This document shows, piece by piece, positions 43,371 to 64,000 of a DNA stretch of 64,000 bases (positions are counted from its first letter, which is position 1; every line of letters starts with the position of its first letter). The notes below the pieces were generated by a model, which worked only from the letters and a program-made list of their open reading frames with translations, made no database searches and was not told where the DNA came from. Source of the DNA: Streptomyces sp. NBC_00440 (GTDB taxonomy: Bacteria > Actinomycetota > Actinomycetes > Streptomycetales > Streptomycetaceae); assembly GCF_036014215.1 (NCBI RefSeq), contig NZ_CP107921.1:8338969-8402968 (forward strand). The letters are read 5' to 3'. The position numbers and the translations under genes were made by a program.

Positions 43371-43490
43371 GTGTTCTGTCCACGGAGGTTGGGTGCGGTG
43401 ACAGTGATCACCGTCTGGGGATCTTGAACGAGTGAGGGCCTTCCGGGTTCGGTGTGGATTGCGACGTCTACACCAGCCCGAAAGGCCCTC

Positions 43491-44444
43491 ATGCCTCACC
43501 GTAATGCACCTCTGACCGAGACCGGACGCCTGCGGCTGGCCCGCTGTGTGGTTGATGACGGATGGCCTCTGCGCCGGGCAGCGGAGCGGTTCCAGGTATC
43601 ACCGACCACAGCCCAGCGGTGGGCCGGGCGCTATCGCCGGCTCGGCGAAGCGGGGATGAGCGACCGTTCCAGCCGCCCCCACCACAGCCCTCGACGCACG
43701 CCGACCCGGACCGAACGCCGGATCATCAAAGTCCGCCTCGCGAGGCGGTGGGGACCGGCCCGCATCGCACACCTGCTGGGCCTGGTGCCATCCACCGTGC
43801 ACCGGGTGCTGGTTCGCTTTGGCTTGGCCCGGCTCAGCCATCTCGATCGGGTCACCGGCCGTGTCATACGCCGCTACGAACGCGACCGGCCCGGCGAACT
43901 CGTGCACGTGGACATCAAGAAGCTTGGCAACATTCCCGACGGGGGCGGTCACAAGGCCCTGGGCCGCCAGGCAGGCCGCAAGACCCGCTCCGGGGCCGGT
44001 TACAGCTATATCCATACCGCCGTCGACGACCACTCCCGTCTGGCTTACAGCGAGATCCACACGGACGAGAAGAAAGAGACCGCCACCGCGTTCTGGCAGC
44101 GGGCCCAGACCTTCTTCACCCACTGCGGGATCACCGTCGAACGGGTCCTGACCGACAACGGGGCGTGCTACAAGTCCTACCTCTGGCGCGAGACCCTGGC
44201 AAAGGCCGGGATCACCCACAAGCGCACCCGGCCCTACCGACCGCAGACCAACGGCAAGGTCGAACGACTCAACCGCACCCTGCTCGACGAGTGGGCCTAC
44301 GCAAAGCCCTACCGCTCAGAGCAGGAACGACGTGACGCATTCCCCCGCTGGCTGCACTCCTACAATCACCACCGCGGACACACCGCGCTTAAGGGCCAAC
44401 CACCCGCCAGCCGCGTCCCCAACCTCACGGGTGAATACAGCTAG
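43491..44444 (+). CDS. IS481-family transposase
   Basis: A 317-residue transposase, apparently intact. The N-terminal helix-turn-helix (GWPLRRAAERFQVSPTTAQR) is followed by the integrase core: Asp in LVHVDIKKLG, Asp in RVLTDNGACYKS, Glu in TNGKVERLNRTLLDEWAY. The C-terminus ends YNHHRGHTALKGQPPASRV. Exact ends of the element were not resolved; its inverted repeats should lie near 43.37 and 44.46 kb. Confidence 0.92.
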   Translation: MPHRNAPLTETGRLRLARCVVDDGWPLRRAAERFQVSPTTAQRWAGRYRRLGEAGMSDRSSRPHHSPRRTPTRTERRIIKVRLARRWGPARIAHLLGLVPSTVHRVLVRFGLARLSHLDRVTGRVIRRYERDRPGELVHVDIKKLGNIPDGGGHKALGRQAGRKTRSGAGYSYIHTAVDDHSRLAYSEIHTDEKKETATAFWQRAQTFFTHCGITVERVLTDNGACYKSYLWRETLAKAGITHKRTRPYRPQTNGKVERLNRTLLDEWAYAKPYRSEQERRDAFPRWLHSYNHHRGHTALKGQPPASRVPNLTGEYS

Positions 44445-48150: not shown

Positions 48151-50070
48151 TTACGGGGTGTCGTACACCTGCAGCATCGGGATCTCGCGGATTGTGTGCT
48201 GGGCACTCGGTGGCCGCAGCGTCTGGGTGCTGATGATCTGTGTGCCGCTGGCGTGGGCGGCTTCGGCCAGCTCTGTGAGCGCCTGGTGCACCACGCTAGC
48301 GGCGATGCCTTGTTGGTAGGGGTTGTCGAGTAGGAGCAGGCCGGGGAAGGCACATTCCTCGTCAAGGTCCGCTTCGAGGAAGAGGGTGGCGTAGCTGTAG
48401 GCCAGGAAGAAGAGAACCTTTGCCTCTGCGCCCAGCCCTTGATCCCATGGCTTTGAGCCGACATAGAAGGTGAGGTCGGTGTCCCTGATGGAGACTTGTC
48501 CGGCCACCCATAGCGTGTCCCTGTAGCGGGCGAGAAAGCCGTTCATGCGATCGGCGAAGATGGAGCAGCGATCCATGGGACTCAGCCCGGACGCCGTTGA
48601 GTTTGCCTGTTCCTTCTCGATCCGTTCAACCAGCTGCTGCGCGGAAAGCACGCTGCGATGCGCATCGGTACGCCGTTGGAAGATCTCTTCCATCGCGGGG
48701 AAGGCCGTCAGCTTGTGTTCCAGCTGCGCGATCTGCGCGGCGAGACCTTCCAGCGTGGCCATGAAGGGGGCGAGTTCCGCCGCGCGACGCTGGTTGAGTT
48801 CTTGGGCTAGTTGAGCTTGCTGCACGTGCAAGTGCTGCTGATGGGTTCGCGCGGAATCCAGGTCGTCCTGGGAGCGCGCGATGACGTCATCTAGATCGGC
48901 CAGCTCTGACTTCAGGGACCTGATCTCCACCTGTGCTCTGCGTTGACGCTTGTCGTCGTCCACGGGCTGGAAGCAGAGGTAGCAGGCATCCTCGTCGTGG
49001 TCGCGGTGCGGGTCGACGTTCTGCTCGCACGCTGGGCACAGCCGGACCGGGAGAGTGTCGAACACCTCGATGGAGGTCGCCAGGCGCTCCATGCGGCTTA
49101 CCTCCGCGGTGACCGTTCGAGCTGAGCGCTGGTGCTCTTCAAGGAGATGCCCAAGATTGGCCATCTCCTCGGTTGCTTGACGGAGGCGGGTGGTGACGTT
49201 GCTGTACGTGTCCGTCAGAGAGGGGTCGTACCCGGCAGGGGAGCCGGCCACAGGGGTCCCGGCGGTGAGGCCCTGAATCTCGTCCGTCAGGAGTCGGCGG
49301 CGCTCGTACACGGCATCGAGTTCGCGGCGGAGTTCTCTCCGGGCGCCGGCAACCTCTTCGGTGGAGCGGACGAGGGGGAGGCCCAGGTTCTGGGATATCG
49401 CTGTGACGGCCTGGAGCGTGCTTTCGCGGACCTCTCGGTCGACGGCCTCGGCTTCGTTCAGGCGCCGCTTTGCCCGGGCGAGATCGAAGTCCCTGTTCGC
49501 TTGAGCAGTCCGTGACCGGGCGAAGCCCAAGAGCTGACTAACGACGGCTCGCCGCATGAACTCCTGCTCCTTGTCGGCGAAGCTGGTCCAGGAGTCCTCG
49601 TTCCGATAGAAGTGCCGCAGGGGGTTGCGGAAAGACAGAGGGGTCTGCTCGGTGGCTGAGGTCGGGTGGAGGCCCTTGGGGATGAGCAGGTTGGGCCAGC
49701 CCAGTTCGTTCAGGATCCAGTCTGAGAAGTCGGCGGCTGCGATCTCGCCGCCGTTGATGCCGATCTTGCCCATTCGCCCATGAGTGAAGTACCTCGTGAG
49801 TTTGTACGGCCGACCATCGACCCGACGATCCGTACTGACCTCGACGTGCTCACTCGCGACGGCGCCCTTGAGGGCATCGGCGGGGCTTCCCCGGTCGCCC
49901 AGGCAGTAATCGATCACTTTGAGGGTCGTGGTCTTCGAGCTGTTCCGGACACCGGTGAGGATGTTGAGTTTGCCCGACTCGAAGACGTACTCGTCCAGCT
50001 CGCCGCTGTGATGGACCAAGGAGACCTTCTCGATCCGCAGGCCGCGCTCGGATGTACGGGGCTCACTCAT
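48151..50070 (-). CDS. ABC-3C system SMC-like ATPase (DUF3732-type)
   Basis: A 639-residue ATPase of the ABC-three-component defence class. Walker A is GVRNSSKTT (residues 40-48). A long coiled coil follows, with two CxxC pairs at its tip (LCPACEQN and CYLCFQP, about residues 330-360), like a zinc hook. The C-terminal ATPase half has GLGAEAKVLFFLAYS as signature and LLLLDNPYQQG as Walker B, with Asn-Pro in place of the usual Glu-Pro. It likely senses a DNA or nucleoprotein trigger. ATG overlaps the stop of the middle-component gene. Confidence 0.85.
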   Translation of the reverse strand: MSEPRTSERGLRIEKVSLVHHSGELDEYVFESGKLNILTGVRNSSKTTTLKVIDYCLGDRGSPADALKGAVASEHVEVSTDRRVDGRPYKLTRYFTHGRMGKIGINGGEIAAADFSDWILNELGWPNLLIPKGLHPTSATEQTPLSFRNPLRHFYRNEDSWTSFADKEQEFMRRAVVSQLLGFARSRTAQANRDFDLARAKRRLNEAEAVDREVRESTLQAVTAISQNLGLPLVRSTEEVAGARRELRRELDAVYERRRLLTDEIQGLTAGTPVAGSPAGYDPSLTDTYSNVTTRLRQATEEMANLGHLLEEHQRSARTVTAEVSRMERLATSIEVFDTLPVRLCPACEQNVDPHRDHDEDACYLCFQPVDDDKRQRRAQVEIRSLKSELADLDDVIARSQDDLDSARTHQQHLHVQQAQLAQELNQRRAAELAPFMATLEGLAAQIAQLEHKLTAFPAMEEIFQRRTDAHRSVLSAQQLVERIEKEQANSTASGLSPMDRCSIFADRMNGFLARYRDTLWVAGQVSIRDTDLTFYVGSKPWDQGLGAEAKVLFFLAYSYATLFLEADLDEECAFPGLLLLDNPYQQGIAASVVHQALTELAEAAHASGTQIISTQTLRPPSAQHTIREIPMLQVYDTP

Positions 50071-50648
50071 GGTCGGATCTCCTGATGGAACGTCGCGTTG
50101 CCGACCTCGTCCGGGAACAGGTCGTAGATGAGTTCTTTCAGATCGGTGCCCGACATCGTCGCCAAGTTGCCCTGCATGGCTTCACAGCGGCCCACCAAGG
50201 GCTCGAATTCATCCATTGCCGCGAAGCGTGCTGCTGCGGCCTTGCCGGCCGCAGTGAGCTTCACGCGCTCGGGGGTGTAGGACACGGTGATGGAGACCAG
50301 ACCGCGCGCGGAGAGGAAGGAAAGGAACTGGCGGTACCGGTGGTCCCAAGGACCGTATCGGTAGCGCACCATCGGCGCCTCGATCTCGGCAGCGTCCGAG
50401 GCGACGTACCTGCCTTGCCGGTCATTCATCCCTGGCAAGGCGGCGTGGGCTCGCTCAAGGAACCCCGGGTAGCGCAGAAAGAAGTCCAGCTTCGCGAACT
50501 TCGTCCGCCCCGCGATGTACGGACCAGGGCTCTCTCCGCACAGGTGGATGAGGAGCAGCAGCCGGGAGGCGTGGAAGTCGACCGAGTCATCGGGATCCCA
50601 GGCCCTGTGAGCGGGCGGCACGGCCTGCCTGCCGATCTTATGAGGCAT
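50067..50648 (-). CDS. ABC-3C system middle component
   Basis: About 193 residues from ATG at 50648, which overlaps the nuclease gene end by 11 bases; its own stop overlaps the ATPase start by four. Sequence such as RLLLLIHLCGESPGPYIAGR, FAKLDFFLRYPGFLERAH and YRQFLSFLSARGLVSITVS suggests a winged-helix-like linker protein. In ABC-3C systems a small middle component couples the ATPase to the effector. It also contains a possible upstream start at 50684, which I consider less likely. Confidence 0.8.
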   Translation of the reverse strand: MPHKIGRQAVPPAHRAWDPDDSVDFHASRLLLLIHLCGESPGPYIAGRTKFAKLDFFLRYPGFLERAHAALPGMNDRQGRYVASDAAEIEAPMVRYRYGPWDHRYRQFLSFLSARGLVSITVSYTPERVKLTAAGKAAAARFAAMDEFEPLVGRCEAMQGNLATMSGTDLKELIYDLFPDEVGNATFHQEIRP

Positions 50649-51738
50649 CTTCGTACCTGTTCTGGCAGCGCGCAGTGATGTCACTCAGTACCGCCACGGC
50701 CTGGCTGAAGTCCACTTCTCCGGACTGCACCTCCGGGAGCTGGACGACCGCCTCCAGGATGGCCGCGTATGCCAGGGGACCAGTAGCGATGGAGCCGCCA
50801 CGCCTTCGAGCCGAGGTCAGCTGACAGATGGCGTAGACCTTGTCTGCGAAGGCAGCAAGGCGTTGACGGCCAAGCCCTACGGTGCTGCGCTGGGCCTGGC
50901 GGAAGGCGAGCATCGACTCATGCTGGCGCTCAGCCTCGGCCTCAAGTACGCCAGCAGGACGAAGCTTCTGTTGGAGGGTCATCAGGCGCTCGGTGGAGCC
51001 GTCACTGCGCAAGCCGGTGACCTTGCGGATACAGCCGTCCAGGATGGCTCGGAAGTCCTCAGCGGAGTGGCTTCGTGGGCGTAGCTCGGCTGCGCTTCGC
51101 GCGATGTACTGGGCCAGCCCGCTCAGCACCTCGTCGACCTCAGTCACCAAGGGCTCCTGCCCGAGGTAGTCCTTGATCAACGGGACCAAGCGCCGGTGAG
51201 CCTCGCTCTCGACGTGCTCCGTGGTGCGGGCTGTGATGAGGACATCCAGGCGATCGACGCACCATCCGACGTCCCGGCCGTCTCGCAAGCTCAGCCCCGC
51301 GAGCTTCCCGACCACCTTGGTGTGGGTCTCGCTGCTCACCGGCTCACGCTTGTCACCGCGCTCGCAGGCGAAGGGGTATAGGTCCGCGAAGGGTGTCTCG
51401 TTCACGATGAGGGTGAACCGCGTGCCCTCGGGTAGCGGTTTTCCCATGAACAGCTTGCCGAGGTAGCTCGACTCCGCTGTTCTGTTCGCTTCCTTCTTGG
51501 ACATGTCGGGACGGCAGACGTCGGCGATGCTGTGGCGCTTTCCCGGACCTTCTACCGTCTTCACCTGACGGTAGAAAGGCACGTCTCCGCGAAGGCAGAG
51601 GATGTCCTCCAAATCCTCCCAGGAGACTTCCGTCCAGTGGCCATCCAGCATGTCGAGACAGTCCAGAAGGGTGACCGCGTCCTGGTAGAGGAAGCCGCGC
51701 CGACTCCGGCGCCCCCCATCAGCAGGTGCAAGCGTCAC
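50638..51738 (-). CDS. ABC-3C effector: DUF4297/Cap4-type dsDNA nuclease
   Basis: A 366-residue protein beginning RRSRRGFLYQDAVTLLDCLD. The N-terminal domain matches the DUF4297/Cap4 nuclease pattern: Glu/Asp cluster in WTEVSWEDLEDI and the catalytic FYRQVKT (Gln-x-Lys of the PD-(D/E)xK fold). The rest is helical and probably contacts the partners. GTG start with AGGAG upstream; first gene of the operon. It is expected to cut DNA when the ATPase is triggered. Confidence 0.85.
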   Translation of the reverse strand: MTLAPADGGRRSRRGFLYQDAVTLLDCLDMLDGHWTEVSWEDLEDILCLRGDVPFYRQVKTVEGPGKRHSIADVCRPDMSKKEANRTAESSYLGKLFMGKPLPEGTRFTLIVNETPFADLYPFACERGDKREPVSSETHTKVVGKLAGLSLRDGRDVGWCVDRLDVLITARTTEHVESEAHRRLVPLIKDYLGQEPLVTEVDEVLSGLAQYIARSAAELRPRSHSAEDFRAILDGCIRKVTGLRSDGSTERLMTLQQKLRPAGVLEAEAERQHESMLAFRQAQRSTVGLGRQRLAAFADKVYAICQLTSARRRGGSIATGPLAYAAILEAVVQLPEVQSGEVDFSQAVAVLSDITARCQNRYEDAS

Positions 51739-52053: not shown

Positions 52054-52395
52054 TCACGCCCAGTCCACGCCCAGCGCCGTGAGGGCGGAGAGCTGATCGG
52101 CGGTGAGCTTGTCGCGCCTCGATTTGGTGTTCGATACCCATACGCCCAGCTTCACGGTCACCGGCACCGTCTCGCCGTCCACCGTGATCGGCTCACCGTG
52201 CCGCCGCGGCACTGGCCGGTCCGCGCCTTCCCGCTCCACCCACTGCGTCAGGGCAGCCAGGCCTCGTTGGAGCGCCTGCTCCGCTTTGCCCGGGCCCCCT
52301 TCGCCGCACCGACCGCCGTCGGGGCGGGAGACGGGGCCACAGGGGCGTTGATGCCCAGCGCGGACAGCCGCTCTCGCTGCTGTGACGGAGTAGTG
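52054..52395 (-). pseudogene. Duplicate of helicase C-terminal region, frameshifted
   Basis: From 52395 the frame reads QQRERLSALGINAPVAPSPA and then, after one extra base in the C-run at 52295-52299, GPGKAEQALQRGLAALTQWV, GVWVSNTKSRRDKLTADQLS and ALGVDWA. This is a close copy of the last 110 residues of the helicase at 60197 (AQQAFQRGLAALTQWVEREG, GVWVSNTRARRDKLTPEQLD). No start codon or helicase core is present. It marks the far end of the transposition module. Confidence 0.85.
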
Positions 52396-52640
52396 ATCTT
52401 CAGGGGGTTGGGCTGTTCTGGTCTGGTGTTCCGTCTTTTGGGGTGGGATTCGGGACGGCTGAAGCGGTTGGGTTCGGGCGTGATGGGCCGGGGCTGGTGA
52501 GTGTGTTCGGTTTGGTTGTTCGGGCTCTTGGCCTGTGGTCCGGTAGTTGTGTGGGATTGATCTTGGTTTTCTTGTAGGTGTGGTGGCACGCCCGTAGGTG
52601 GCCGTACCAATGCGCCGGGGTGGATGGGGACTTGTGCTGG
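52396..52640. other. Non-coding, T-biased spacer after the transposition genes
   Basis: No convincing ORF. The plus strand is unusually rich in GGTT and TTCGG; GTTCGGGC occurs at 52472-52479 and 52518-52525 in similar surroundings (GGTTNNGTTCGGG). Such repeats could be transposase binding sites near an element end, but the match is weak. Confidence 0.35.
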
Positions 52641-53596
52641 TCAGTGGCGTGTGTGGGTGAGGAAGGCCCGGAGGGGATCGTTCGCGTTGCTGGCCAGGCG
52701 GGGCAGTCCGAGTCGGTGGGCGATGAGGTTGAGGGCCTTGCCGGTGTCGCGGTGTGGCCGGTTCGGGAGGGCGGCGAGTGCGCGGGCGAGGGTGACGGTT
52801 TCCGGGTAGGTCACCAGGTCGCGGGTCAGCAGGGCGGGGGAGGCGTTGCCTGTGGTGGTCAGGTGGGGGTTGGCCTTGCAGAGCCGGGTCAGGCGGGTGT
52901 GCCAGCGGTGGGTGAGGTGTTGCTGGTGGTCGTACCAGCGGGTGGTGATGGCGCGTGCTGCGGTCCAGGCGGTGGCAGCTCGGGGGTGTCGTAGCAGGCG
53001 CTGGTGGGGGCGCGATGTGCGGCGGCGAGTTCGGGCACGCCCTGGATACGGACGCTGGTGGCGAGTCGTGGGTCGGGGGCGGCTTGGTGGTGGCGTGGGC
53101 ACACCAGCCGGTGCGGCGGCCGATGAACCCAGGCGGTGTCGGTGGTGCCGTGGCTGCGGTGGCGGGTGCACAGGGCGCAGGCGCGGACGGGCTGCTGCTC
53201 GGCATCGAGCCGCTTCCAGCGCGCGGCGGCAGCGATGTGGTGGGCGTCGTCGGTGGGTACGAGGCGGGGCAGGGCGCGCGTCAGGTGGGGGAGTGGCGTG
53301 CGGGTCAGGACGGCGAGGTGCTGGGTCGCGGTGTGGTTGAGGTGGAGTTCGGCTGCGGGTGGCGTGCCGTGGCGATGGAGGGTGATGTTGGCGCCGTCGA
53401 GGAGCTGGGGCAAGGTCAGCTGGTAGGTGTCGGCGAGGCGTTGGGTGTAGGAGGCGGTTGCTTCGCCGGGCAGTGGCCGTACACGGGAGACGCCCGGTGC
53501 GGCTGACGGGATCCGCAGCCATGTCCCTGCGGCGACGATGCGCTGTGCAGCAGCGGCCCCTGCCGCGGCGCGGGTTGTGACGTCTGTCCGGCTCAC
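52641..53596 (-). pseudogene. tniQ: TniQ-family transposition adaptor, broken by homopolymer frameshift
   Basis: TniQ proteins choose the insertion target by linking TnsC to a target-recognition partner. The N-terminal part (GTG at 53596) reads PLPGEATASYTQRLADTYQL and has a zinc motif C-x2-C...C-x2-H (CALCTRH, LVCPRHH). The frame breaks at the G-run 52982-52986 and resumes as RAATAWTAARAITTRWYDHQ to the stop at 52641. One added base would restore about 318 residues. Start overlaps the tnsC stop (GTGA). It could be a real mutation or a sequencing error. Confidence 0.8.
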
Positions 53597-54699
53597 GACG
53601 TGCTGGTGTTCCGGCTTCGCGGCCGGGTGCGGGGTTGGTGGTGCTGTTCGGCGAGGTGGTCGAGGCGGATGGCGTCGAGGGTGGTTTTGGTGATGCGTTC
53701 GGTGCCGTCGATGAGGGCGGTGATGGCTGCTTGGCGGATGAGGCGGGCGAGGCTGCCGATGCGGCCGGCGGTGCGCTCGTGCAGGTACGGGGCCAGCCGG
53801 GGGAGGGTTCCGGGCCGGTGATGGCGCAGATCCAGTGCGGTTTCCATGGCGGTGATGAGGTCGCGGAAGGGTTCTTCGTCGCCGAGGCGGGCGGGGAAGG
53901 GGTCGCAGTCGATGAGGGAGGCGCGTCCGGCGAGCTGGGCGCCGCGTACGCCGGTGAACAGGGGCGTGGTGGTGACGTCGATGCCGGCATAGACGAAGGT
54001 GGCGCCGATGCGTTCAGTGAGATCTTTGATCAGGTCGGCGCTCTGGGCGCCGGTGGTGGTGCGGGGGTTGAGCCGGTGGATCTCGTCGATCATCACCAGC
54101 TGGACTTTGGCGGCGGTGTAGGTGTGGCAGACAGCGTTCGTGATCTGGGTCTGGGACATGCCTGTGGTGACGGGGATGCCGAGGTAGCGGGCGAATTCGA
54201 TGGCGAGGGTCTTGGCGCTGGCGGCGGGCGGGACCAGGACGTAGGCGACGGGGGCTTGTCCGGCTGCTGCCGTGGCGCCGTGGCGGCGGATGTGGGCGAG
54301 GTGGCAGGCGCGGCCGACCTGGAGCAGGGCGGTGGTTTTCCCGGCGCCGGCGGGACCGGTGACGATGAGGGAGGGCCGGGCAGTGACGGTCTGGTGGCGG
54401 CCGAGGATCATCAGGGTGCGCACGTTCTTGGCGAGGGCGTCGATGGCGGGGGTGCGCACGGTGACGAACCGCGAGTGGTAGGCCAGGCGTTCCTCGAGGC
54501 TGCGGTGCGGTGTGCCGGGTGGGGGAGGAGCTGCCACGGGTGTGGTGGCGAAGGCCTGGAAGCCGTCCCAGGTGGTCACCGCCTGTGGCTGCGGATCAGG
54601 GGCGCCGCCGGCACTTGCCGCGGTGCCGGGATTCCGGTGCGCTGTCGACGGGCATGGGCCGGCCGGTGCACCGCTCGTGCTCGACGAGGCGTTCACCAC
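53593..54699 (-). CDS. tnsC: TnsC/TniB-type AAA+ ATPase
   Basis: About 368 residues. Walker A is GPAGAGKTT, Walker B is LVMIDEIHRLN; sensor and arginine-finger regions follow (FVYAGIDVTTT, RTAGRIGSLARLIRQ). It forms the ATP-dependent filament that links target recognition by TniQ to the TnsB transposase. Start GTG at 54699 or 54696 overlaps the tnsB stop. The first 50 residues are low complexity. Confidence 0.92.
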   Translation of the reverse strand: MVNASSSTSGAPAGPCPSTAHRNPGTAASAGGAPDPQPQAVTTWDGFQAFATTPVAAPPPPGTPHRSLEERLAYHSRFVTVRTPAIDALAKNVRTLMILGRHQTVTARPSLIVTGPAGAGKTTALLQVGRACHLAHIRRHGATAAAGQAPVAYVLVPPAASAKTLAIEFARYLGIPVTTGMSQTQITNAVCHTYTAAKVQLVMIDEIHRLNPRTTTGAQSADLIKDLTERIGATFVYAGIDVTTTPLFTGVRGAQLAGRASLIDCDPFPARLGDEEPFRDLITAMETALDLRHHRPGTLPRLAPYLHERTAGRIGSLARLIRQAAITALIDGTERITKTTLDAIRLDHLAEQHHQPRTRPRSRNTSTS

Positions 54700-56852
54700 T
54701 GCTCGGCTTCCGCTTCGGCGTCCCACAGCCCGTACCCGCCTGCCTCGGGCGGCAGCACGCTCGCGCCCTCCGGCTCGCTAACGTCGGTCTCGTCGGCCGC
54801 GGTATCGACACTGATGAGGTCGTCCAGGCTCTCGCTCCAGTCCGGTGCCGGGGCCGGTGCGGTCTCTGCGTCGAGTGGGCGCCGTTGGCCTGGAAGATCG
54901 GGCAACTGTGCTGCCGTACCGGCGCGGGAGGCTCTCCGACGGCGGGTTTTCTGCTCGGTCTCGGCGGGGTGGCGGGTGCGGCGCAGGAGCTGGTCGAGGG
55001 CGTCGGCGAGGTCGGCCTCATGCTGCTCCCGGTCCCCGCGTTGTTCGACCTCGGCCTGGACGTGGCGCCAGATGGCGTCGTTGAAGGGCTGGTGGACGTG
55101 GTCGCGGTGGATCCAGGGGATTTCGTGGAGGTGTCCGTCGGTGAGGCGGACGAAGATCTGGCGGGCGTCGTGGGGGTTGTGGTGGACCTCCCACTTGCCG
55201 TCCTTGCTGGTGATGGGGGAGCGCTCGCTGCGGTGGGGGTCGAGGATGTCGTGGTTGTAGGTGCGGTAGTCGAGGCGGATGCCGCGTTCGGTGATGGGCT
55301 GCCAGCGCACGGGCAGCAGTTCGAGGTAGTCGGCCCCGGTCAGCGGCACAGGCACGTAGCCGCTGATGGTGATCAGTGCGGCCCACATTTGGTTCGGGGT
55401 GAGGGCGGTTTTGGGCAGGACGGGGTGGCGCAGTCCGTCGTGGGGACGGTTCTGCCAGCCGCAGGTGATCCACTCGTCGAGGAAGTCCTGCAGCTGCCCA
55501 ATCGTCCAGCGGGCCTCGGCCGCGGTCTTGGAGCCGCGGCGCTGGGGGTTGGATCCGGTGTGGCCGGCGACGTGCTGGCAGAACAGGTCGTTGATCGAGC
55601 CGAAGGTCCGCTCCACCACGGCCTTGGCCTGCGGCCGTCTCGGTGGAGCGGGCTGCACGTTTACCCCGAGCGTCTCGCAGGCGGCGACGAAGCCCTGCGA
55701 GAGGTAGATCTTGCCGCGGTCGACGACAATCGTCTCGGGCACGATCACCGGCCGCGCGGCCGCGCCCTCCAGGCGCTTGTCCAGCGACAGCATCCGCTCA
55801 AAGGGCACTTCGGCCCGCGACAGGTGAAGCGAGGTGGGCCAGGTCGGCCGAGCAGGGTGGGGAACAGCCATTTCCGCCAGGAGGAGGGCGGCGTCGACGG
55901 CTTTGGTGCTGTGCGGGCGCAGGATGGCGGCCAGGATGGAGCGGGTGGCGACGTCGACGGCGATCGTCAGCTCCGGCCGGCCCAGGCTGCCGCCCTCGAG
56001 GACGGCCATGATGTCCAGACGGGTGGTGTCGATCTGCACCTGCTCCCCGGGCCGCAGCACCACCGGCGCTGCCGACGAGGCGCGGGCGGGTGCGGTGGCG
56101 GTACGCGCGGGCCGACCCGGACGATCGGCCGGGTCGGCCAGCACACTCACCAGCCGGTAGAACGACGACCGCGACGGCATCTCCACCACCCCGCGCCCGT
56201 GCGTATCCTCCAGGATCTGCCCGACCAGTACCTGCAGTCCCTTCACCGTTCCCTTCGACCGGCCCCGCTGGCGCCGCAGCGCCTCCAGCACAGCAGCCAC
56301 GACCCGCTCGTCGGCATACCCCGTCGGATGACGCCCACGGGCCGGCACCGCACGCTTGTCGACCAGCCCCCACAAACCCTGCTTGCGGTAGGCGTGCCGC
56401 ATCCGCTGCACCGTCGTAGGCGTCACCCGGGCGAAGCCGAGCGCTGCCAGTTCCTTCGCCTTGGCCGCGTCCCGCTGCGCCAGCGTCCACCGCTCGGGGT
56501 CGTACTCCGGCCGCATCGTCTGGGCGTCACGGCTGCCCGGGGCATGCGGCAGCCCGGTCTCCACTTCCCGGATATGGGGCAGCCAGGCCAGCGCCCGCTG
56601 CTGGGCCGCCACCGGAACGGTCTCGAACAGTCCCCACTGCGGCACCGCGTCCGGCGCCCGCGCGCCCACTACTTCGAAGCCCGGGTCGGCGAACAACCGC
56701 CCCAGCAGCAGGCTCGTTTCGGTGCCGTCCTCCTGCAGCAGGTAGACCTGCTGGCCCTGCAAGGCGGCGACCTGCCAGGTCTGTCCCCGGTAGGCGACGT
56801 GCGCGCCGACCTCCACCACCGGCCGCGGGCTCCTACCGAGTGTGCTGCCCAC
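54693..56852 (-). CDS. tnsB: TnsB-type DDE transposase (Mu/TniA family)
   Basis: A 719-residue transposase from GTG at 56852 with AAGGAAGGGG upstream; an ATG at 56963 would overlap the TnsA-like gene further. N-terminal helix-turn-helix domains (FARVTPTTVQRMRHAYRKQG) precede the catalytic core: Asp in VQIDTTRLDIM, Asp in ETIVVDRGKIYLS, Glu in QAKAVVERTFGSIND. A Mu-type C-terminal beta barrel and an acidic tail (about 70 residues, DETDVSEPEG) follow, the tail probably binding TnsC. All three acidic residues are present, so it may be active. Confidence 0.93.
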   Translation of the reverse strand: MGSTLGRSPRPVVEVGAHVAYRGQTWQVAALQGQQVYLLQEDGTETSLLLGRLFADPGFEVVGARAPDAVPQWGLFETVPVAAQQRALAWLPHIREVETGLPHAPGSRDAQTMRPEYDPERWTLAQRDAAKAKELAALGFARVTPTTVQRMRHAYRKQGLWGLVDKRAVPARGRHPTGYADERVVAAVLEALRRQRGRSKGTVKGLQVLVGQILEDTHGRGVVEMPSRSSFYRLVSVLADPADRPGRPARTATAPARASSAAPVVLRPGEQVQIDTTRLDIMAVLEGGSLGRPELTIAVDVATRSILAAILRPHSTKAVDAALLLAEMAVPHPARPTWPTSLHLSRAEVPFERMLSLDKRLEGAAARPVIVPETIVVDRGKIYLSQGFVAACETLGVNVQPAPPRRPQAKAVVERTFGSINDLFCQHVAGHTGSNPQRRGSKTAAEARWTIGQLQDFLDEWITCGWQNRPHDGLRHPVLPKTALTPNQMWAALITISGYVPVPLTGADYLELLPVRWQPITERGIRLDYRTYNHDILDPHRSERSPITSKDGKWEVHHNPHDARQIFVRLTDGHLHEIPWIHRDHVHQPFNDAIWRHVQAEVEQRGDREQHEADLADALDQLLRRTRHPAETEQKTRRRRASRAGTAAQLPDLPGQRRPLDAETAPAPAPDWSESLDDLISVDTAADETDVSEPEGASVLPPEAGGYGLWDAEAEAEQW

Positions 56853-57783
56853 TGCGCTCGCCCCTTCCTTGGCTGCCGCCGGCGCCCAGCTGCTTTTCGA
56901 CGCCCCCACCAATGCGTTCTGCGTCAGAGCAGACCAGCGCCTCCTCGTGCAGCGGCTCATCAAGAGGCGTCGTCAGATGCCCGCACCACAGCGCGTGATA
57001 GACAGCCGGCAGCACTTGCAGCGGATCGCCTACTGCGGCTGCGCCGCCGGCCAGCGGCCGGGGCCCGGCGAACGCTTCGGCCAGCGTGGCCCGCAGCCCG
57101 GGCGGGCCCTGATTACGTGGGTGGCGGTAGCCGGCCAGCCACCGCAAGTTCGCCGCCACCACCGCTGGAGGTGGCTCAAGGCGCCGGTAAGCCCAGCCCA
57201 CGCGGGCACACGCCGCCTCCAGGACCATCCGCGCCCGCTGCGCCCTGTCTGCCCCGGTGGTCGGGCTGGAGGGGCAGTCGGCGAGCAGGCCGGTGCCTTC
57301 GGTGTACCGGGCGAACAACTGAGGCACCCACGAGCGCACCCGCCCGTCGGGATCCCGCCACAGCAGCCGTACCGGACGTGCGGACAGGCCGGTCACGTCC
57401 GGATTCCGGTCCAGGACCATCAGCTGGGTGCGCATTGCTGCCGAACCGTGTACGACGTGCCGTCCGGTGGTCGCCGACCACCACCAGCCCGGCCCCCACC
57501 GGCGGCCCGGAACGACCGGAAACGCGGATACCGGCGCGAGGTCCTCGAACCGCACCGATGCCGTCGCCTGATCCCACGGCAACTGCGTCAACTGCCCGGC
57601 GGCCGTGACGAACGCGGCCTCGATTCCCGCACCGCCGCCCCCTGCGGTAGCCTGCTGCACCCGCCTGCCGTGCTCGTGCCCCTCCACACTCAACAGCCAA
57701 GTGCATGGGTGGCTGCTGAACGCCGTGATCTGGATCCGCCACCCGAACGGGTGAACGGCGGCCGCGACGCCGAGCTCCTGCAC
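56833..57783 (-). CDS. TnsA-like protein, catalytic residues apparently replaced
   Basis: A 316-residue protein in the position and with the layout of a TnsA-like transposase endonuclease subunit: MVLDRNPDVTGLSARPVRLL, then WVPQLFARYTEGTGLLADC, then a helical tail YHALWCGHLTTPLDEPLHEE. TnsA proteins of this type usually read PDFFA with the catalytic Asp and an acidic/Lys motif on the next strand; here it is PQLFA and LLADCPS, and the usual preceding Glu is not evident. It may be a non-cutting structural subunit. GTG start six bases after the TniQ-HA stop; its end overlaps tnsB by 20 bases. Confidence 0.75.
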   Translation of the reverse strand: MQELGVAAAVHPFGWRIQITAFSSHPCTWLLSVEGHEHGRRVQQATAGGGGAGIEAAFVTAAGQLTQLPWDQATASVRFEDLAPVSAFPVVPGRRWGPGWWWSATTGRHVVHGSAAMRTQLMVLDRNPDVTGLSARPVRLLWRDPDGRVRSWVPQLFARYTEGTGLLADCPSSPTTGADRAQRARMVLEAACARVGWAYRRLEPPPAVVAANLRWLAGYRHPRNQGPPGLRATLAEAFAGPRPLAGGAAAVGDPLQVLPAVYHALWCGHLTTPLDEPLHEEALVCSDAERIGGGVEKQLGAGGSQGRGERSGQHTR

Positions 57784-57789
57784 CCGTGG

Positions 57790-60180
57790 TCAGACCAGGG
57801 AGGTTCTCAGTTCCTGCAGGAGCCGCTGTTGGCCGGGCAACAAGGCGTGGCGTTGAGCGAGTTGCTCGCTGAACCAGGAGCGCAGCTTGGGCGGTGGTTC
57901 GAGGCCGGCGATGAGCAGGAGACGCAGATGGTGGTAGTCGCGCTGCCAGGCGAACGCCCACGGAGGGAACCACCACGGATCCAGAGCAGCGAGGGCCTGC
58001 ATGCCCGGCCACGGAGCCGGTGTGCGGCGCGCGTGGGCTCCGGCCTCTCCGCGTTTGCTGGTGAGCCACCTTCCCAGCGGGAACCCGTTGTGCTGAACGG
58101 GGTGCGGCAGCGCCAGGTGGCCGTGAACGCCGACGTAGTCCCGGGCATGGGCCAAGCCCACGGCGAAGTCGATCCGGGCGCCGGTGGGGTGGTACCACGC
58201 GGTCTGCCTCGCTTGTGCGGCCTCGGCGGTGACGCCCATCTCCCGCAGTAGATCTTGCTGGCGGGGGTGGAGCTCTTCGAACAGGGCGCACTGCGCGTAC
58301 AGCCATGATCTGGCAGACGCCCCCACCCCGGCGAAGCCATCCCCCGGCACCAGCAGCTGATTGCTGCCGCACTGCTTGCGGGCGTGGTGGTAGGCGCGTT
58401 GCCATGCCATGGGCCACGGCGGGTTCCACCACGGGTCGATGGCGGACAGTGCACGGCTCCGGTCGGTTTCCTTCTCCGCCATACGGGCCCGGCTGCGTTG
58501 GCTCATCAGCCACTGCCCAAGAGGAAAACCGTCCTGCCGCGTGCTCTTGGACGTGGCGAGGTGGCCGTGGACGGCGGCAAAGGCTCGGGCGTAGTCCAGG
58601 CCGGCCGCGAAGGCCTGAGCAAGGCTGTTACGGCGAGGGCGTGCTGAGCGGGCGTGCGCGGGCCGGATTCCGAGATCTGCGAGCAGGCGTTGCTGGCCCA
58701 CGTGGAGGTCGTCGTACCGGGAACACTGCTCATGGAGCCACTCGCCCAAGGCGAGGCTGGTGCCGGGGAATCCTGCCGTGGCGTCAACGAGGCCATGCTT
58801 TTGAACGTGTACCAGGGCGCGGTGGTACGTCCGTCGCCAGGAGATGGGCCAGGGACCATTCCACCAGGGATCGATGCGATGCAACGCCTGCGCCCGCTCG
58901 ATGGGGAGCGCTGCTACTCCGGTTCTCTGATTGGCCAGCCACGGCCCCAGAGCAAAACCCTCGTGACGGCCGTACTTGGGAACAGCGAGATGCCCGTGAC
59001 GCGCCGCGTAGGAACGGGCGTGTGCCAAGCCGACCTGATACGCCTGCTCTGCACGGGACTGCCTTCCTCCTACCGGAGCACTGCCGACGTGCTGGAGGCG
59101 CAACTCCCGCAGCTGCGCCGCAAGCCCACGAGGCCGGTGCGCGACCGGAACCGCCCACACCTCTTCCTCGGACACTGCTCCGCGCTCCCGCCGCACACAC
59201 GCCCGCACCCAGGCGAACAAGGCTCCTGCACTGGAGGAGGCAAGCTGTTCCACCAGCCACGGGCGGCCCAGACGGCGAGCCAGCTCGGTCAGCAGACGGG
59301 GAACCTCGGCCAACGTGTGCGGCATCTGACCGTGCGTGTCCTCTAATACGCGTTGTCGCCACAACCGGTCACATAGAACCGTCGTGACCGCGACAGCCTC
59401 GGGATACGTCACCACGTCCCGGGCGAGCACCGCCACCTCACCCTCGGGGAGATCGGCACAGACACGACCAAGACGCGCCGGCCAGATCACTTCGTCCCGC
59501 CGGCCCGCGTCCCACCAGGAGGCAACGACCGCCTGGGCCACGGCAAAAGCGCTCTCGCACGAGCCCCTACGGCGCAGCATCGGCAGAAGGCGCTCGTGCG
59601 CACGTATCACCTCCGGTAGCCCGGAGAGGCTCACCTGGCCTTCGACCAGCGTGGCTCTGTCCAGCGCCAGTGAGTCGAGGGACCAGCACTGGTGCCTGAT
59701 GCAGATCCTTGAACGCAGGTCGCAGTACAGACGGACAGACCAGGGAGCGCCTGTCCGGGCCGCCGTACACAGACGGCATCCCAGCATGACGGCAGGAACT
59801 GTGCTGCCGGAGGCGAAGCGCACGTTCGGCTGGTCACCGTTCGCCTTCGCGTCAGCGCCCCCATCCCAGGAAGGCAGCGCGCGGGACAGATGCGACTCCG
59901 GCACCTGGCAGAAGGAAGCCAGCCGGCGCCGCACCGCGGACGCCAGGAACAACTCGCCGACGAGACAGCCCTCTCCCCAGACACCACGCACGCCAGGGCC
60001 CGCCATCGCAGACAACAGGCCCGTCACAGTGACGTTGTAGCGAGAGGCCAGCCGATTCACGAATGACATCGTCGTTTCACCTGCCACCGGGGCCAGCCGG
60101 ACGACACCGGACACAGGCCACGAGGAAAACGAATCCGTCACTTGACACTCCACAGCTTCACCGGCGTGCGCGACCGGCAT
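57790..60180 (-). CDS. TniQ protein fused to three helicase-associated (HA) repeats
   Basis: A 796-residue fusion. Residues 1 to about 350 are TniQ: LAPVAGETTMSFVNRLASRY, the zinc motif CRLCTAA...ICIRHQC and ARDVVTYPEAVAVTTVLCDR. After a linker come three long repeats of about 125 residues starting near residues 395, 530 and 665, each with GLxxARxYxxxHGHLAxP, GxWLxxQR and IDPWWNxPWPxxWxRxYHxA. These are HA-type DNA-binding domains of the kind that end the neighbouring helicase. ATG with GGGAG upstream, 16 bases after the helicase stop. It is probably the target-site reader. Confidence 0.85.
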   Translation of the reverse strand: MPVAHAGEAVECQVTDSFSSWPVSGVVRLAPVAGETTMSFVNRLASRYNVTVTGLLSAMAGPGVRGVWGEGCLVGELFLASAVRRRLASFCQVPESHLSRALPSWDGGADAKANGDQPNVRFASGSTVPAVMLGCRLCTAARTGAPWSVRLYCDLRSRICIRHQCWSLDSLALDRATLVEGQVSLSGLPEVIRAHERLLPMLRRRGSCESAFAVAQAVVASWWDAGRRDEVIWPARLGRVCADLPEGEVAVLARDVVTYPEAVAVTTVLCDRLWRQRVLEDTHGQMPHTLAEVPRLLTELARRLGRPWLVEQLASSSAGALFAWVRACVRRERGAVSEEEVWAVPVAHRPRGLAAQLRELRLQHVGSAPVGGRQSRAEQAYQVGLAHARSYAARHGHLAVPKYGRHEGFALGPWLANQRTGVAALPIERAQALHRIDPWWNGPWPISWRRTYHRALVHVQKHGLVDATAGFPGTSLALGEWLHEQCSRYDDLHVGQQRLLADLGIRPAHARSARPRRNSLAQAFAAGLDYARAFAAVHGHLATSKSTRQDGFPLGQWLMSQRSRARMAEKETDRSRALSAIDPWWNPPWPMAWQRAYHHARKQCGSNQLLVPGDGFAGVGASARSWLYAQCALFEELHPRQQDLLREMGVTAEAAQARQTAWYHPTGARIDFAVGLAHARDYVGVHGHLALPHPVQHNGFPLGRWLTSKRGEAGAHARRTPAPWPGMQALAALDPWWFPPWAFAWQRDYHHLRLLLIAGLEPPPKLRSWFSEQLAQRHALLPGQQRLLQELRTSLV

Positions 60181-60196
60181 AGGGCTCCCACTGCCT

Positions 60197-62872
60197 CTAC
60201 GCCGCCCATTCCATGCCGAGCCCCCGTAGCGCGTCCAGCTGCTCCGGGGTGAGCTTGTCGCGCCTCGCGCGGGTGTTCGATACCCACACGCCTAGCTTGA
60301 CGACCACCGGCTCCGTCTCGCCGTCAACCGCGATCTCCTCAGCGTGGCTGCGGGGTACCGGCCGGTGGGCACCCTCCCGCTCTACCCACTGGGTGAGGGC
60401 TGCCAGTCCACGCTGGAACGCCTGCTGCGCTTTGCCCGGCCCCTTCGCCGCAGGCGTTGCCGCCGGGGCAGGAGACGGGGTCTCAGTGGGCTGCACCCCC
60501 AGCGTTGTCAGCCGTTCCTGCTGTTCGGCGGAGAACTGTGTCCAGGTGCTCGCTTCTCTTTGCCGCATGAGCCATCGTCCGATGTCGTCGCCCTCGAAGA
60601 GCACGCCGGGTTGGATGTCGGGCAGGTGGCCGTCGGCGTCGGCGAGGTCGGAGAGGACGCGGTAGTGCCGCTGCCAGTCGAGCGGCCAGGGGCAGTTCCA
60701 GTCCGGGTCGATCGCCGCCAGCTGCGCGGCACGCACCGCCGCTCGCTCCGGGTCCTTGCCCAGGCCGTTCTTCTGCCCCTTCCGCCGGAGGTTCGCCAGG
60801 TGCTGCCCGATGGGCACCATCGCCTCGCCCTCGCCCCAGACGGCGTCCTGCCGGGGTGCGAGGTGTCCGGTGGCTCGCCGGTAGGACCGGAACGCGGCGA
60901 GTTTGTTCTCCCACGCTTCGTCGCCGGGTTCCCACACCATCCCGGCGTCGTCGAGGAGCTCCTTGCGGTGGGGGTCGAGTTCGCCTGTGCGCTGGGCGCG
61001 GCGTTGCTGGTGCACCCACCGGCCCAGGGGGTAGTCCTTCGTCACGCCGACTGCGGTCTCGGTGTCGTACGGCACGGCGTACAGGCCGGTGATCTCGTTC
61101 TCGGTACGCCAGCGGATGAGGGCTTGGTAGCCCTCCAGCCAGACGAGGGATTCGGGCCGGATGACGCGGCAGCGGGTCAGAGCAGCGATGTTGGCGGCGT
61201 CCCGGGGAGAAGCAAAGTTGACCACGACCGAGGTGACCCGGTCGACCTCCTGCTGCGCCTCGTCGCTCGCCTCTTGCCCGTCTCCGTTCTGCGCCCCGGT
61301 CGCGGGGGTGGGGCGGACGTGGATGCGCCGCCGCTCGGCGCCGCGGGTCAGGGCGTGGGAGGCGAGCTGGTCGACCATGCGTTCCGAGTGCGAGCGCAGG
61401 GCTTGGAGGATGTCGACCAGGGGTTGGTAGCTGGCCGAGGCGATCATGTCCTTCGGGTCCTCCTCGGGCTGGAGGAAGACAGGGATGATGATCCGGGCGG
61501 TCTTGGTCGTGCCGTCCGGGTTGGGGCGCAGGGCGCGTCCGATGTTCTGAACGACGTCGACCTGGGAGCTGCGCGAGCCGACGATGCACACGGCCTCGAC
61601 CCCGCGCAGTCCGGTGATATCGACCCCGACCCCGAGCGCCCGTACCGAGGAGAGGAACGCCCGGTGTACGCGTCGGTTCTGGGCGTTGATGCCGTTGGCG
61701 AACCGGTGGATCACCGCACGCCGGTGCGCGATGGGATGGTCCCCGCACAGCCAGTCCGCCCATACCCGGTCCGGAGGCACGTGACGGGCCTCCTCCAGCT
61801 CGTACAGCTCAGCATCGATCGACGACGCGGGCAGTTCCTCCGCCCCGGCCAGCGCCGCCGCGGAGGCCTCGGCGGTATACAGTTCGGCGGCCGTGCGCGG
61901 CATCTGCTCGGCGAACGCGGCCGCCTCCTCCACCCGCTGGTGGAACACCATGGTGGTGTGCAGATTCTGCTGCGCCGCGTGCTCCAGCAGCGCCGCTTGG
62001 AGCAGGGCCATGCGCCGGCCACGCAGGGTGTCCCCGGACAGGCCCAGGACCGGGTCCGGGTCGCGGATCTCCAGCACGTCGATCTCGAACCCCGCAAGGA
62101 TCGAGCGTTCCACTGCCTCCGCCAGACCGAGATCAAAAATCCGGGTGCCGTAGGTGCTGGAGTCATCCTCCATCGACGCGATCACCACCTCCCGGCCGTC
62201 CCGCCCGCGCTGCGGCCGGGGCGCGGCGAGGATCCGCGGGGTGGCGGTCAGGTAGAGCCGGAAGTCGACAGGGATCCGACTGTTGTCGTGGATCGCCGCC
62301 CACGGCCGCCCCATGTCTCCGGCCGTCATGTGCCCCTCGTCCAGAATGGCCAGGTCAAACGGAGCCATCCGCTGCCCGTACAGCCGCTCCCCGCCGGCCA
62401 GAGCCGATTCCAACGGCCCAGGGACAGTCCGGCGACCAGTGACGTCGGCGGGGTCCTCGCGGTCCACGAGGGAGGCGTAGGTGGCGAACACGACCACCGG
62501 CCCGGTCCCGGCCCACAGGGCGAGCTGGATCGGGTTGGTGGTGGTGCGCACTCCGAGCTGCTCCAGGACCTCGTCCTTGTCCACCGAGCAGACTGCGACC
62601 ATCGGCGCCCGGTGCCCGACCCGCCGCCAGGACTGGGCACTCTGCACGATCAGGTCCAGCGTGGGCACCATCACCAGAATCCGCCCGCCCGGGAAGTACT
62701 CCAGAGCGCATGCAGCGGTGGTGATCGTCTTGCCGGACCCGGTCGCAGACACCCCCATCGCACGCGCCCCTTCCGGAGGAACAGGCGATCTTGCAGGAAA
62801 TCCAACCCAGTTACGAAAACTCAACTTCTGGTCGACCTGGTGTTCCTTGAGCGGAACCAAAAGCATTTTCAA
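60197..62872 (-). CDS. SF2 DEAD/DEAH-like helicase with HA domains
   Basis: An 891-residue helicase. Motif I is SATGSGKTITTAA, motif II is LAILDEGHMTAGD, motif III is LTATPR, motif VI is QNIGRALRPNPDG. The C-terminal third carries HA domains: YPLGRWVHQQRRAQRTGELD, KLAAFRSYRRATGHLAPRQD, IDPDWNCPWPLDWQRHYRVL, and a last module GVWVSNTRARRDKLTPEQLD. Helicase genes of this sort (ttrA type) are known near Streptomyces chromosome ends. Operon position before TniQ-HA suggests a part in target selection. Confidence 0.9.
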   Translation of the reverse strand: MKMLLVPLKEHQVDQKLSFRNWVGFPARSPVPPEGARAMGVSATGSGKTITTAACALEYFPGGRILVMVPTLDLIVQSAQSWRRVGHRAPMVAVCSVDKDEVLEQLGVRTTTNPIQLALWAGTGPVVVFATYASLVDREDPADVTGRRTVPGPLESALAGGERLYGQRMAPFDLAILDEGHMTAGDMGRPWAAIHDNSRIPVDFRLYLTATPRILAAPRPQRGRDGREVVIASMEDDSSTYGTRIFDLGLAEAVERSILAGFEIDVLEIRDPDPVLGLSGDTLRGRRMALLQAALLEHAAQQNLHTTMVFHQRVEEAAAFAEQMPRTAAELYTAEASAAALAGAEELPASSIDAELYELEEARHVPPDRVWADWLCGDHPIAHRRAVIHRFANGINAQNRRVHRAFLSSVRALGVGVDITGLRGVEAVCIVGSRSSQVDVVQNIGRALRPNPDGTTKTARIIIPVFLQPEEDPKDMIASASYQPLVDILQALRSHSERMVDQLASHALTRGAERRRIHVRPTPATGAQNGDGQEASDEAQQEVDRVTSVVVNFASPRDAANIAALTRCRVIRPESLVWLEGYQALIRWRTENEITGLYAVPYDTETAVGVTKDYPLGRWVHQQRRAQRTGELDPHRKELLDDAGMVWEPGDEAWENKLAAFRSYRRATGHLAPRQDAVWGEGEAMVPIGQHLANLRRKGQKNGLGKDPERAAVRAAQLAAIDPDWNCPWPLDWQRHYRVLSDLADADGHLPDIQPGVLFEGDDIGRWLMRQREASTWTQFSAEQQERLTTLGVQPTETPSPAPAATPAAKGPGKAQQAFQRGLAALTQWVEREGAHRPVPRSHAEEIAVDGETEPVVVKLGVWVSNTRARRDKLTPEQLDALRGLGMEWAA

Positions 62873-62902
62873 GCCCTCCCTAATACTTGTCCCTGATGTC
62901 TT

Positions 62903-63592
62903 TCAGAGGGCCGCGTGCGGAGTGCAGGCCGCGCCCGAGTCATTCCAGATCGACGCATCCGCCTTGTGCCAGCCGCCGGGCTTTCCGTCTTTGAAGGGAG
63001 GCTTGTCGTCCGGGTCGTAGTGGCCGGCATTGAGTGTGCAGACGACGTAGTCCCCGTCGCTGTTCACGGTTCGCGCGGTGCACAGAGCGCCGGCCTCGCC
63101 CAGCGCCGCCAGCACCCGGCGCCACTGCGTGGTGTTCGGATGCGTGCGCGGCAGCACAGTCCCCCGGACGAACCTCTCCAGCCGAACAAGGTCCGACCGC
63201 TCACGCCGCCTCACGCCCGCCAGATGCACGGCCAGCTCAGCGGCCCCGGCCGACCTGCCGGCACGCCGGGACCAGTCACGGTCCGCGATGCCCACCAGGG
63301 CCTCGCTCACGGCCGTTACGCCTTCGTCCCAGCCGTTCTCGAAGACCGGGCCCCGGCAGGCCGGCGCCATGCCGTCCAACTCGACCACCTCGCCGGCGGC
63401 CCCGGCGACCGCTCCGGCCTCCAGGGAGGCCAGCAGGTCGTCCGCCTCAGCCGCGGGCACGCCCTGCGCCTCCAGGAGCGCGAACAGCTTCAACCGGGCG
63501 TTGGTGCCCGCCGTCTGATACTGGCTCACCCTGCGCACAGAATCGCTGCTCAGCGCGGGGCCCGTTCCGATAGATTCGCTGTGACCAGTCAT
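62903..63592 (-). CDS. Unrecognised protein at head of the transposition operon
   Basis: 229 residues from ATG at 63592 with GAGAGGAA upstream. Mostly helical (ARLKLFALLEAQGVPAAEAD) with a Cys/His-containing C-terminal part (LCTARTVNSDGDYVVCTLNA, GHYDPDDKPPFKDGKPGGWH). I recognise no family. It lies 30 bases before the helicase gene in the same direction and could be a regulator or a part of the targeting machinery. Confidence 0.7.
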   Translation of the reverse strand: MTGHSESIGTGPALSSDSVRRVSQYQTAGTNARLKLFALLEAQGVPAAEADDLLASLEAGAVAGAAGEVVELDGMAPACRGPVFENGWDEGVTAVSEALVGIADRDWSRRAGRSAGAAELAVHLAGVRRRERSDLVRLERFVRGTVLPRTHPNTTQWRRVLAALGEAGALCTARTVNSDGDYVVCTLNAGHYDPDDKPPFKDGKPGGWHKADASIWNDSGAACTPHAAL

Positions 63593-63669
63593 CGACGGGC
63601 CGTTCCTCTCGAATATTAAGGGGTCTCTGGGCGACTGTTGGGTGTCCTATATTTTCGCCAACGGTACAT

Positions 63670-63690
63670 GCTGCATCAATTTGATGCAGC
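63670..63690. promoter_or_regulatory. 21-base palindromic operator candidate
   Basis: GCTGCATCA-ATT-TGATGCAGC, a perfect nine-base inverted repeat about 80 bases upstream of the operon start at 63592. Typical spacing for repressor binding over a promoter. The flanking DNA is AT-rich. Confidence 0.6.
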
Positions 63691-63742
63691 GATACACTAG
63701 AACCCACACGAACGAGCGACCCCTCCTCCTTGCAGCCAGCCC

Positions 63743-63993
63743 GGCCCGCGTCAGCGGGCCTTGAGGCCCTGGAGGCGAAGCCGGAGGGGCCGTTGGGCGG
63801 GGGAGCGCAGCGGACCCGCTTGGCCAGGTTGGAGCGCAGCGGAAACCTGGCCGCGGGCGCAGCCAAGGAGGCTCGGGAGCGCAGCGGACGGGCCGTCAAC
63901 CATCCCGCGCAGCGGGATGGTTGCACAGTGGCGCAGCCACTCGTTGGCGCTCACGCGGAGCGTGAGCGCAACACCAGGCGCAGCCCGGGTGTT
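63743..63993. repeat. Telomere-like array of hairpins with GNA loops
   Basis: Consecutive palindromes fill the window end: GGCCCGC/GCGGGCC (63743-63760, GTCA loop); GGC-GAA-GCC (63774-63782); GGCCAGGTT/AACCTGGCC (63822-63852); a 12-pair stem 63897-63923 with GCA loop; AGTGGC-GCA-GCCACT (63927-63941); GCGCTCACGC-GGA-GCGTGAGCGC (63947-63969); AACACC...GGTGTT enclosing GGC-GCA-GCC (63970-63993). GGAGCGCAGCGGA appears three times. Tandem palindromes with GCA or GGA triloops are a hallmark of Streptomyces telomeres. No gene is visible after 63592. Confidence 0.7.
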
Positions 63994-64000
63994 CGCTTGC

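Follow-up and report, generated by a model that had tools for sequence, protein, structure and literature searches.

A Tn7-like telomeric element of Streptomyces with one recognised transposon end, a TnsA-like protein lacking its active-site residues and ttrA as a probable target

Introduction

Hsieh et al. (Science 2025) reportedly described telomeric transposons, in which Tn7-like machinery occupies the replicon ends of linear bacterial genomes. These elements are said to possess one transposon end, with the telomere serving as the other boundary, and to include Streptomyces among their hosts. The publication of telomeric transposons in 2025 is cited in a part of PMC12669027, while the main text of the survey PMC10293859 contains no word beginning with "telomer". 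Tn7-like elements typically carry TGT/ACA-type terminal 8 bp, and among the TniQ domain organisations a figure legend from 2024 names HA (both in portions of PMC11406308). An earlier note on the locus described here, which knew of no described pathway combining an HA helicase with a TniQ-HA fusion, is therefore outdated with respect to TniQ with HA, in print since 2024 (part of PMC11406308), and to telomeric transposons, in print since 2025 (part of PMC12669027). At most Streptomyces replicon ends lies a gene for the putative helicase TtrA, which is transcribed inward and is needed for the conjugation of SLP2 (passages of PMC8743542).

Here, we analyzed the right tip of the chromosome of Streptomyces sp. 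NBC_00440. The locus is probably a Tn7-like telomeric transposon with a single TnsB-type end, predicted to copy the whole chromosome tip replicatively into a resident ttrA gene.

Results

The window, by which we mean the entire stretch of 64,000 nucleotides that was analyzed, corresponds to C1:8338969-8402968 of a two-contig genome, and its last base is the last base of the chromosome C1 (8,402,968 bp). The features at this tip are as follows, from the interior outward:

52054..52380, minus strand: 3′ remnant of the resident ttrA hit by the insertion, that is, the target (comparison with other ttrA genes)
52381..52640, minus strand: inner transposon end, with conserved blocks that are probable TnsB sites (aligned ends)
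52641..53596, minus strand: second tniQ with a frameshift (N-terminal part read in 52889-53596, C-terminal part in a frame ending at 52641; PF06527 match there)
53593..54726, minus strand: tnsC, TniB/AAA+ ATPase (Pfam TniB, E 3e-14)
54693..56963, minus strand: tnsB, DDE transposase (D312, D415, E451 in ORF numbering; the true start is probably further in)
56833..57783, minus strand: tnsA-like gene, active site lost (NCBIfam NF033179 and alignment)
57790..60180, minus strand: tniQ-HA, a TniQ domain (residues 27-165) plus HA repeats, probable target selector (Pfam)
60197..62872, minus strand: ttrA-like SF2 helicase gene with four HA repeats, transcribed inward (Pfam; telomere position)
62903..63592, minus strand: ORF of 229 aa, function unknown, between the telomere and ttrA (ORF of the same length elsewhere before ttrA)
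63593..64000, no strand: telomere-proximal terminal region, the outer boundary of the element (contig end and matching sequence at other ends)

Both a TnsB-type DDE transposase and a TnsC-type AAA+ ATPase are present, as in Tn7-like elements, together with a TniQ-domain protein. The best PDB sequence match of TnsB is TnsB of Tn6677 (E 4e-12), and its DDE residues are complete in 23 of 24 relatives, the remaining one being cut off; TnsC matches VchTnsC and ShTnsC by sequence. The locus is a Tn7-like module as proposed earlier, with a TnsA family member, TnsB, TnsC and TniQ, and its seven packed genes all lie on the minus strand as described. That description had missed the telomere and terminal-repeat setting, the single transposon end, ttrA as the target and the inactivated TnsA.

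The left end of C1 and both ends of the plasmid C2 begin with the same terminal sequence as the window tip, reaching about 18 bases further out, and NZ_CP108136 begins with a similar one. The tns block is part of the terminal inverted repeat and occurs on three of the four replicon ends of the genome, in the order, from the tip inward, of telomere, ttrA, tniQ-HA, tnsA, tnsB, tnsC, frameshifted second tniQ and TGT/ACA-type end. The left and right chromosome ends have about 11.95 kb in common, counted from the tip, while the left chromosome end and the right plasmid end share 15.24 kb from the tip, which extends past the inner end. The left plasmid end shares only the first 3.8 kb with the others, comprising the telomere plus ttrA; its close match to the window (L018:1-3829) breaks off within ttrA, at about 3.36 kb, and the 3′ end of the gene is abruptly different. 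No TnsA, TnsB, TnsC or TniQ was detected in the first 36 kb of this end by tblastn with the window proteins, and the matches of TniQ-HA in this region are to HA repeats. At 11.97-12.96 kb, the same end carries a second HA-repeat fragment, which is diverged.

Several other features of the window were recorded. Adjoining the telomeric element, three minus-strand genes at 48151-51738 encode a Cap4-type nuclease (PF14130; among PADLOC models nearest to HamA and next nearest to LmuA), an LmuC-like protein and an LmuB-like protein. This Lamassu-like defence system also occurs near the NZ_CP108539 end and, by annotation, near the NZ_CP108136 end. A cobalamin riboswitch is located at 5493-5568 on the minus strand (40.9 bits); it was the one match, unrelated to CRISPR, of an Rfam scan, and Pfam covered nine genes. 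A plus-strand ORF at 43452-44444, recognised by eye, resembles a complete IS481-type transposase.

The helicase contains four PF03457 (HA) stretches (E 9e-45) plus ResIII/DEAD, and TniQ-HA combines PF06527 (E 3e-6) with three HA stretches (E 2e-41), all in Pfam, which confirms the earlier observation of HA domains in both proteins. Lying on the minus strand at the right end, the helicase gene is close to a replicon end and transcribed inward, as is typical of the telomere helicase TtrA. In PLSDB, ttrA matches are found in 378 records compared with 109 for TnsB (68 of them from Streptomyces; E <= 1e-50), and ttrA occurs without tns genes at the left plasmid end and in NZ_CP108539. Because the gene is widespread and present without tns genes, the helicase is, judged by its distribution, a resident telomere gene first and not a tns partner, and its earlier casting as a tns-specific targeting component is not supported. 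The helicase gene immediately precedes TniQ-HA in seven loci (window, CP108136, L101, L102, L103, CP120999 and G146), whereas another seven carry TniQ-HA without a full ttrA adjoining (G058, G066, G085, G090, G099, CP107794 and CP045177), and the two genes are therefore not always adjacent. The model put forward in the earlier note, that the HA helicase joins TniQ-HA in a single complex for targeting, would account for their adjacency, for the HA repeats common to both and for the seven loci with ttrA directly before TniQ-HA; set against the wide, tns-free occurrence of ttrA and the seven loci without it, the model is very doubtful. The "unknown protein" counted as part of the module does exist as the 229-aa ORF, but this ORF also stands before ttrA at the tns-free ends of C2 left and NZ_CP108539. 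It gave no Pfam, NCBIfam or PADLOC match at the limits used.

The tnsA-like gene belongs to the TnsA_like_Actin family (NF033179; 281.9 bits against a cut-off of 110), but the PD-(D/E)xK active site of a Tn7-like TnsA is absent, with G113, Q155 and P171 occupying the positions where intact relatives carry E, D and K/R. Among interior relatives, E, PD and K/R are all retained in 17 of 20, and one residue is missing in the other three (relatives G107, G468 and G479). We surveyed 80 TnsA_like_Actin genes, hand-picked on long contigs among the 150 matches listed, with contig ends standing in for replicon ends. Among the matches listed, all three residues are lost in 28 of the 31 genes located within 50 kb of a contig end and intact in 3, while beyond 50 kb they are intact in 46 of 49, mixed in one and lost in two (at 65 and 102 kb). 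Restricting these listed matches to non-identical proteins, the lost form accounts for 19 of 21 within 50 kb of a contig end versus 2 of 47 beyond; all 19 are transcribed inward, and the two near-end exceptions are intact. In a tree of 92 rows, obtained by a short search with the active-site columns kept in, the lost form makes up one side of a single branch (SH-aLRT 100). As read from this tree, the residues were lost once in evolution and the lost form has long been conserved since, so that a Fisher test on the end-proximity counts overstates its weight. The predicted TnsA structure is of low confidence (pLDDT 60.7); its best Foldseek matches are the TnsA structures 1t0f/1f1z at E 2e-3, with no match at 0.001, a result that supports the fold only. 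In a Tn7-like system, a TnsA active-site mutant makes cointegrates instead of simple insertions (in a part of PMC8188705). Since the TnsA residues are lost and the TnsB DDE triad is intact, replicative one-ended copying is predicted for the present element, not cut-and-paste. Two further arrangements were observed around tnsA in relatives. The close relative NZ_CP109158 (L270:7180-9444) has tnsB and tnsC with no annotated tnsA before tnsB, tnsA annotation being likewise absent before tnsB in its sister record NZ_CP109355, and the telomeric NZ_CP045177 (L268:4012-7783) has genes for a DarT-like ADP-ribosyltransferase, an ADP-ribosylglycohydrolase and an exonuclease between tniQ-HA and tnsA.

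The terminal 23 bp of the inner end occupy 52381-52403, and the last 8 bp, read towards the interior, are CCGTCACA. This octamer is invariant in 15 of 15 ends aligned over about 260 bp, two of which are from this genome. A scan for the 23-bp motif with at most six mismatches yielded 16 matches in 15 of the 54 sources, all with a constant orientation relative to the genes; the sole match in the opposite orientation has six mismatches and lies inside L102, away from the tip. On the telomere side, no inverted partner end (23 bp, at most six mismatches, a scan blind to any end differing at more than six of the 23 bases) was found in the seven sources reaching ttrA, namely the window, chromosome left, plasmid right, CP108136, L101, L102 and L103. 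Only one end was found, so no target duplication is readable. With one specific end and the telomere as the other boundary, the element matches the definition of a telomeric transposon. The locus could instead be a conventional two-ended Tn7-like element, moving by cut-and-paste or replicatively, whose outer end has diverged past recognition; many Tn7-like elements pair overlapping with spaced TnsB sites, and their ends can differ (portion of PMC11406308). This alternative is decidedly improbable: the seven sources gave no inverted match, approximately 20 bp separate the ttrA stop from the tniQ-HA start, the 3′ part of the outer ttrA can be aligned to other ttrA genes throughout, and there is no resident tip outside the element. 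A two-ended insertion accompanied by restoration of the ttrA 3′ end was also considered as a candidate and rejected, since the outer ttrA, which can be aligned to its counterparts, contains no end sequence and no inverted end was found. A loose pattern scan for the end matched in 391 of 392 genomes and is hence uninformative; among its matches is a near-end variant, CCATCACA, in G096. In L101:12099-15013, two copies of the inner end lie 2.9 kb apart, as if one element had inserted into the ttrA of an older one.

The sequences beyond the inner end indicate where such elements insert. Eighteen flanks were read; L119, L270 and L271 represent one site, leaving 16 distinct sites, and L100, which ends at a contig edge, was not counted. 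Nine of the 16 are in ttrA: alignment identifies six (chromosome left, chromosome right, CP108136, L102, L103 and CP106794), and the other three (L101 twice and L105) were assigned from a short HA-like peptide of 10-14 residues at the C terminus. The other seven are not recognisably ttrA with the window ttrA as query (L082, L099, L106, L119/L270/L271, L127, CP045177 and L121), and the insertion in L121 is in an older tnsC. Eight of the nine ttrA sites are located 15-29 nt upstream of [LA]G[MVIL] codons closing HA repeat 1, 3 or 4, while the ninth (CP106794) is further upstream, in HA repeat 2. Uniform positions over the HA part of ttrA would place 4.8% of sites in this register, a figure to be read with the register having been chosen after the sites were seen and with some sites possibly sharing descent. 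In NZ_CP108136, whose cassette is 90% identical, and in S. uncialis L102, this end is located at the ttrA codon that is also hit in the present genome; the four sites at codon ~783 may represent as few as two events. The plasmid end NZ_CP108539 has the same flank (98.5%) with an intact ttrA and no tns match in 23.3 kb. The ttrA remnant is only 73.8% identical to the ttrA of NZ_CP108539, against 98.5% for the flank beyond, and the allele actually hit is therefore not represented by this record.

Along 11,620 bp, the two chromosomal copies differ in 7 alignment columns, none of them more than 148 bp from the tip, and are identical across the last 11,472 bp up to the inner end. Beyond it, 82 of 332 columns differ, starting with a 2-bp gap directly at the end, and the ttrA alleles are 25% apart. 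Judging from this alignment, recombination would have had to switch exactly at the inner end. Alternatively, ttrA copies and terminal repeats could have served as substrates for homologous recombination or break-induced replication that spread the tips, with the tns genes as passengers. Consistent with such spreading are the 15.24 kb common to chromosome left and plasmid right, the divergence of the left plasmid end inside ttrA, and the ttrA 3′ ends that differ between alleles while the flanks beyond are near-identical. As the account of these elements it is improbable, given that the chromosomal copies part exactly at a TnsB-type end with a 2-bp shift, that 16 distinct flanks adjoin this one end, and that the end blocks and the DDE residues are conserved. 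Since the shared 15.24 kb extend beyond the inner end, recombination also moves these tips.

Which protein would select ttrA was considered from the two TniQ genes. The AlphaFold2 model of TniQ-HA (pLDDT 86.7) has a mostly helical HA part and a TniQ part whose alignment with TniQ of CAST complexes is weak; Foldseek returned no match at E <= 0.001 and, in a second look, none outstanding for the HA part. TniQ-HA is more variable than the core, being 40-44% identical in L100, L101, L103 and L121, where TnsB is 86-91% identical. In the four copies whose TniQ-HA reaches 92% identity or more, including two from this genome, the insertion lies at one and the same ttrA codon. The second tniQ is split over the same two frames in the chromosome-left copy and is a single open gene in NZ_CP108136. 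A second TniQ is thus present as had been noted, but the ORF at 52641-53990 to which it had been assigned was rejected, as it is in the wrong frame and has no Pfam match. A sequencing error could account for the frameshift, or the ribosome could read through it. Because TniQ-HA is the only intact TniQ here, it is likelier than TniQ2 to be the target selector, in agreement with its earlier designation as the targeting arm. A variant of the preferred account, in which the second, TnsD-like TniQ picks ttrA, is somewhat unlikely. It finds support in L101 and L103, where TniQ-HA is different (44% and 40%) and TniQ2 more similar (72% and 80%), and which are also inserted in ttrA, though at other HA repeats; against it, TniQ2 is frameshifted in both chromosomal copies, and elements with TniQ-HA at least 92% identical use one site even where TniQ2 is 75% identical (L102). 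In a sister clade, which has an HA-less TniQ beside tnsA, the element has a separate end, in most cases 140-400 bp past tnsC, and only 2 of 18 have ttrA within 2.5 kb of tnsC. ttrA targeting is therefore not general.

Discussion

Our analysis, which is based on sequence comparison, makes it probable that this Tn7-like telomeric transposon copies the whole chromosome tip replicatively into a resident ttrA through one TnsB-type end. In the mechanism we propose, TniQ-HA likely reads the HA-repeat part of the resident ttrA and brings in TnsC. At the inner end, TnsB would nick the 3′ strand, which it would transfer to ttrA. An inactive TnsA would leave the 5′ strand uncleaved, so that the donor would keep its copy. 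The freed 3′ end of the target would prime synthesis through the element to the telomere. The target would thereby gain a new tip with a complete ttrA and lose its old one, the element's own ttrA making good the gene destroyed by insertion. A broader reading, which we regard as conceivable but less than an even prospect, is that a whole lineage of Tn7 relatives has turned into a tip-copying machine, in which a single early inactivation of TnsA fixed a copy-only mode, TnsB links one 3′ end to the HA-repeat DNA of the telomeric ttrA picked by TniQ-HA, and replication to the end gives the target replicon a complete new telomere arm.

If the proposed copying is correct, it would be a counterpart in bacteria of telomere capture by break-induced replication and of the telomeric transposons of eukaryotes, and it could help explain terminal-repeat swaps between the Streptomyces chromosome and plasmids. 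Exchange of Streptomyces ends is usually ascribed to recombination; a one-ended transposase that targets the telomere helicase gene offers a specific and testable alternative, and the insertion register in the HA repeats points to a defined target for TniQ-HA. Neither the TnsA loss nor ttrA as a target was found in the literature searched, which was covered mostly at title level; both the loss and the insertion register in ttrA are possibly new, or else already contained in Hsieh et al. 2025.

Compared with Streptomyces TtrA as described in passages of PMC8743542, the present helicase gene is likewise located near an end and transcribed inward, but here the element both brings a ttrA with it and has ttrA as its insertion target. 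Tn5053-like and type V-K elements, which have no TnsA and are replicative (part of PMC8188705), share the expected lack of 5′-strand cleavage; the element described here differs in keeping TnsA as a conserved protein without the active-site residues. With prototypic Tn7 (TnsABCD), the element has in common the set of TnsA, TnsB, TnsC and TniQ/TnsD, the TGT/ACA terminal 8 bp and insertion tied to a defined gene. In contrast to Tn7, which has two ends, one end was found here, the TnsA active site is lost and TniQ carries HA repeats. Moreover, the target is ttrA and not glmS, and the target gene is cut, with a new copy arriving together with the element.
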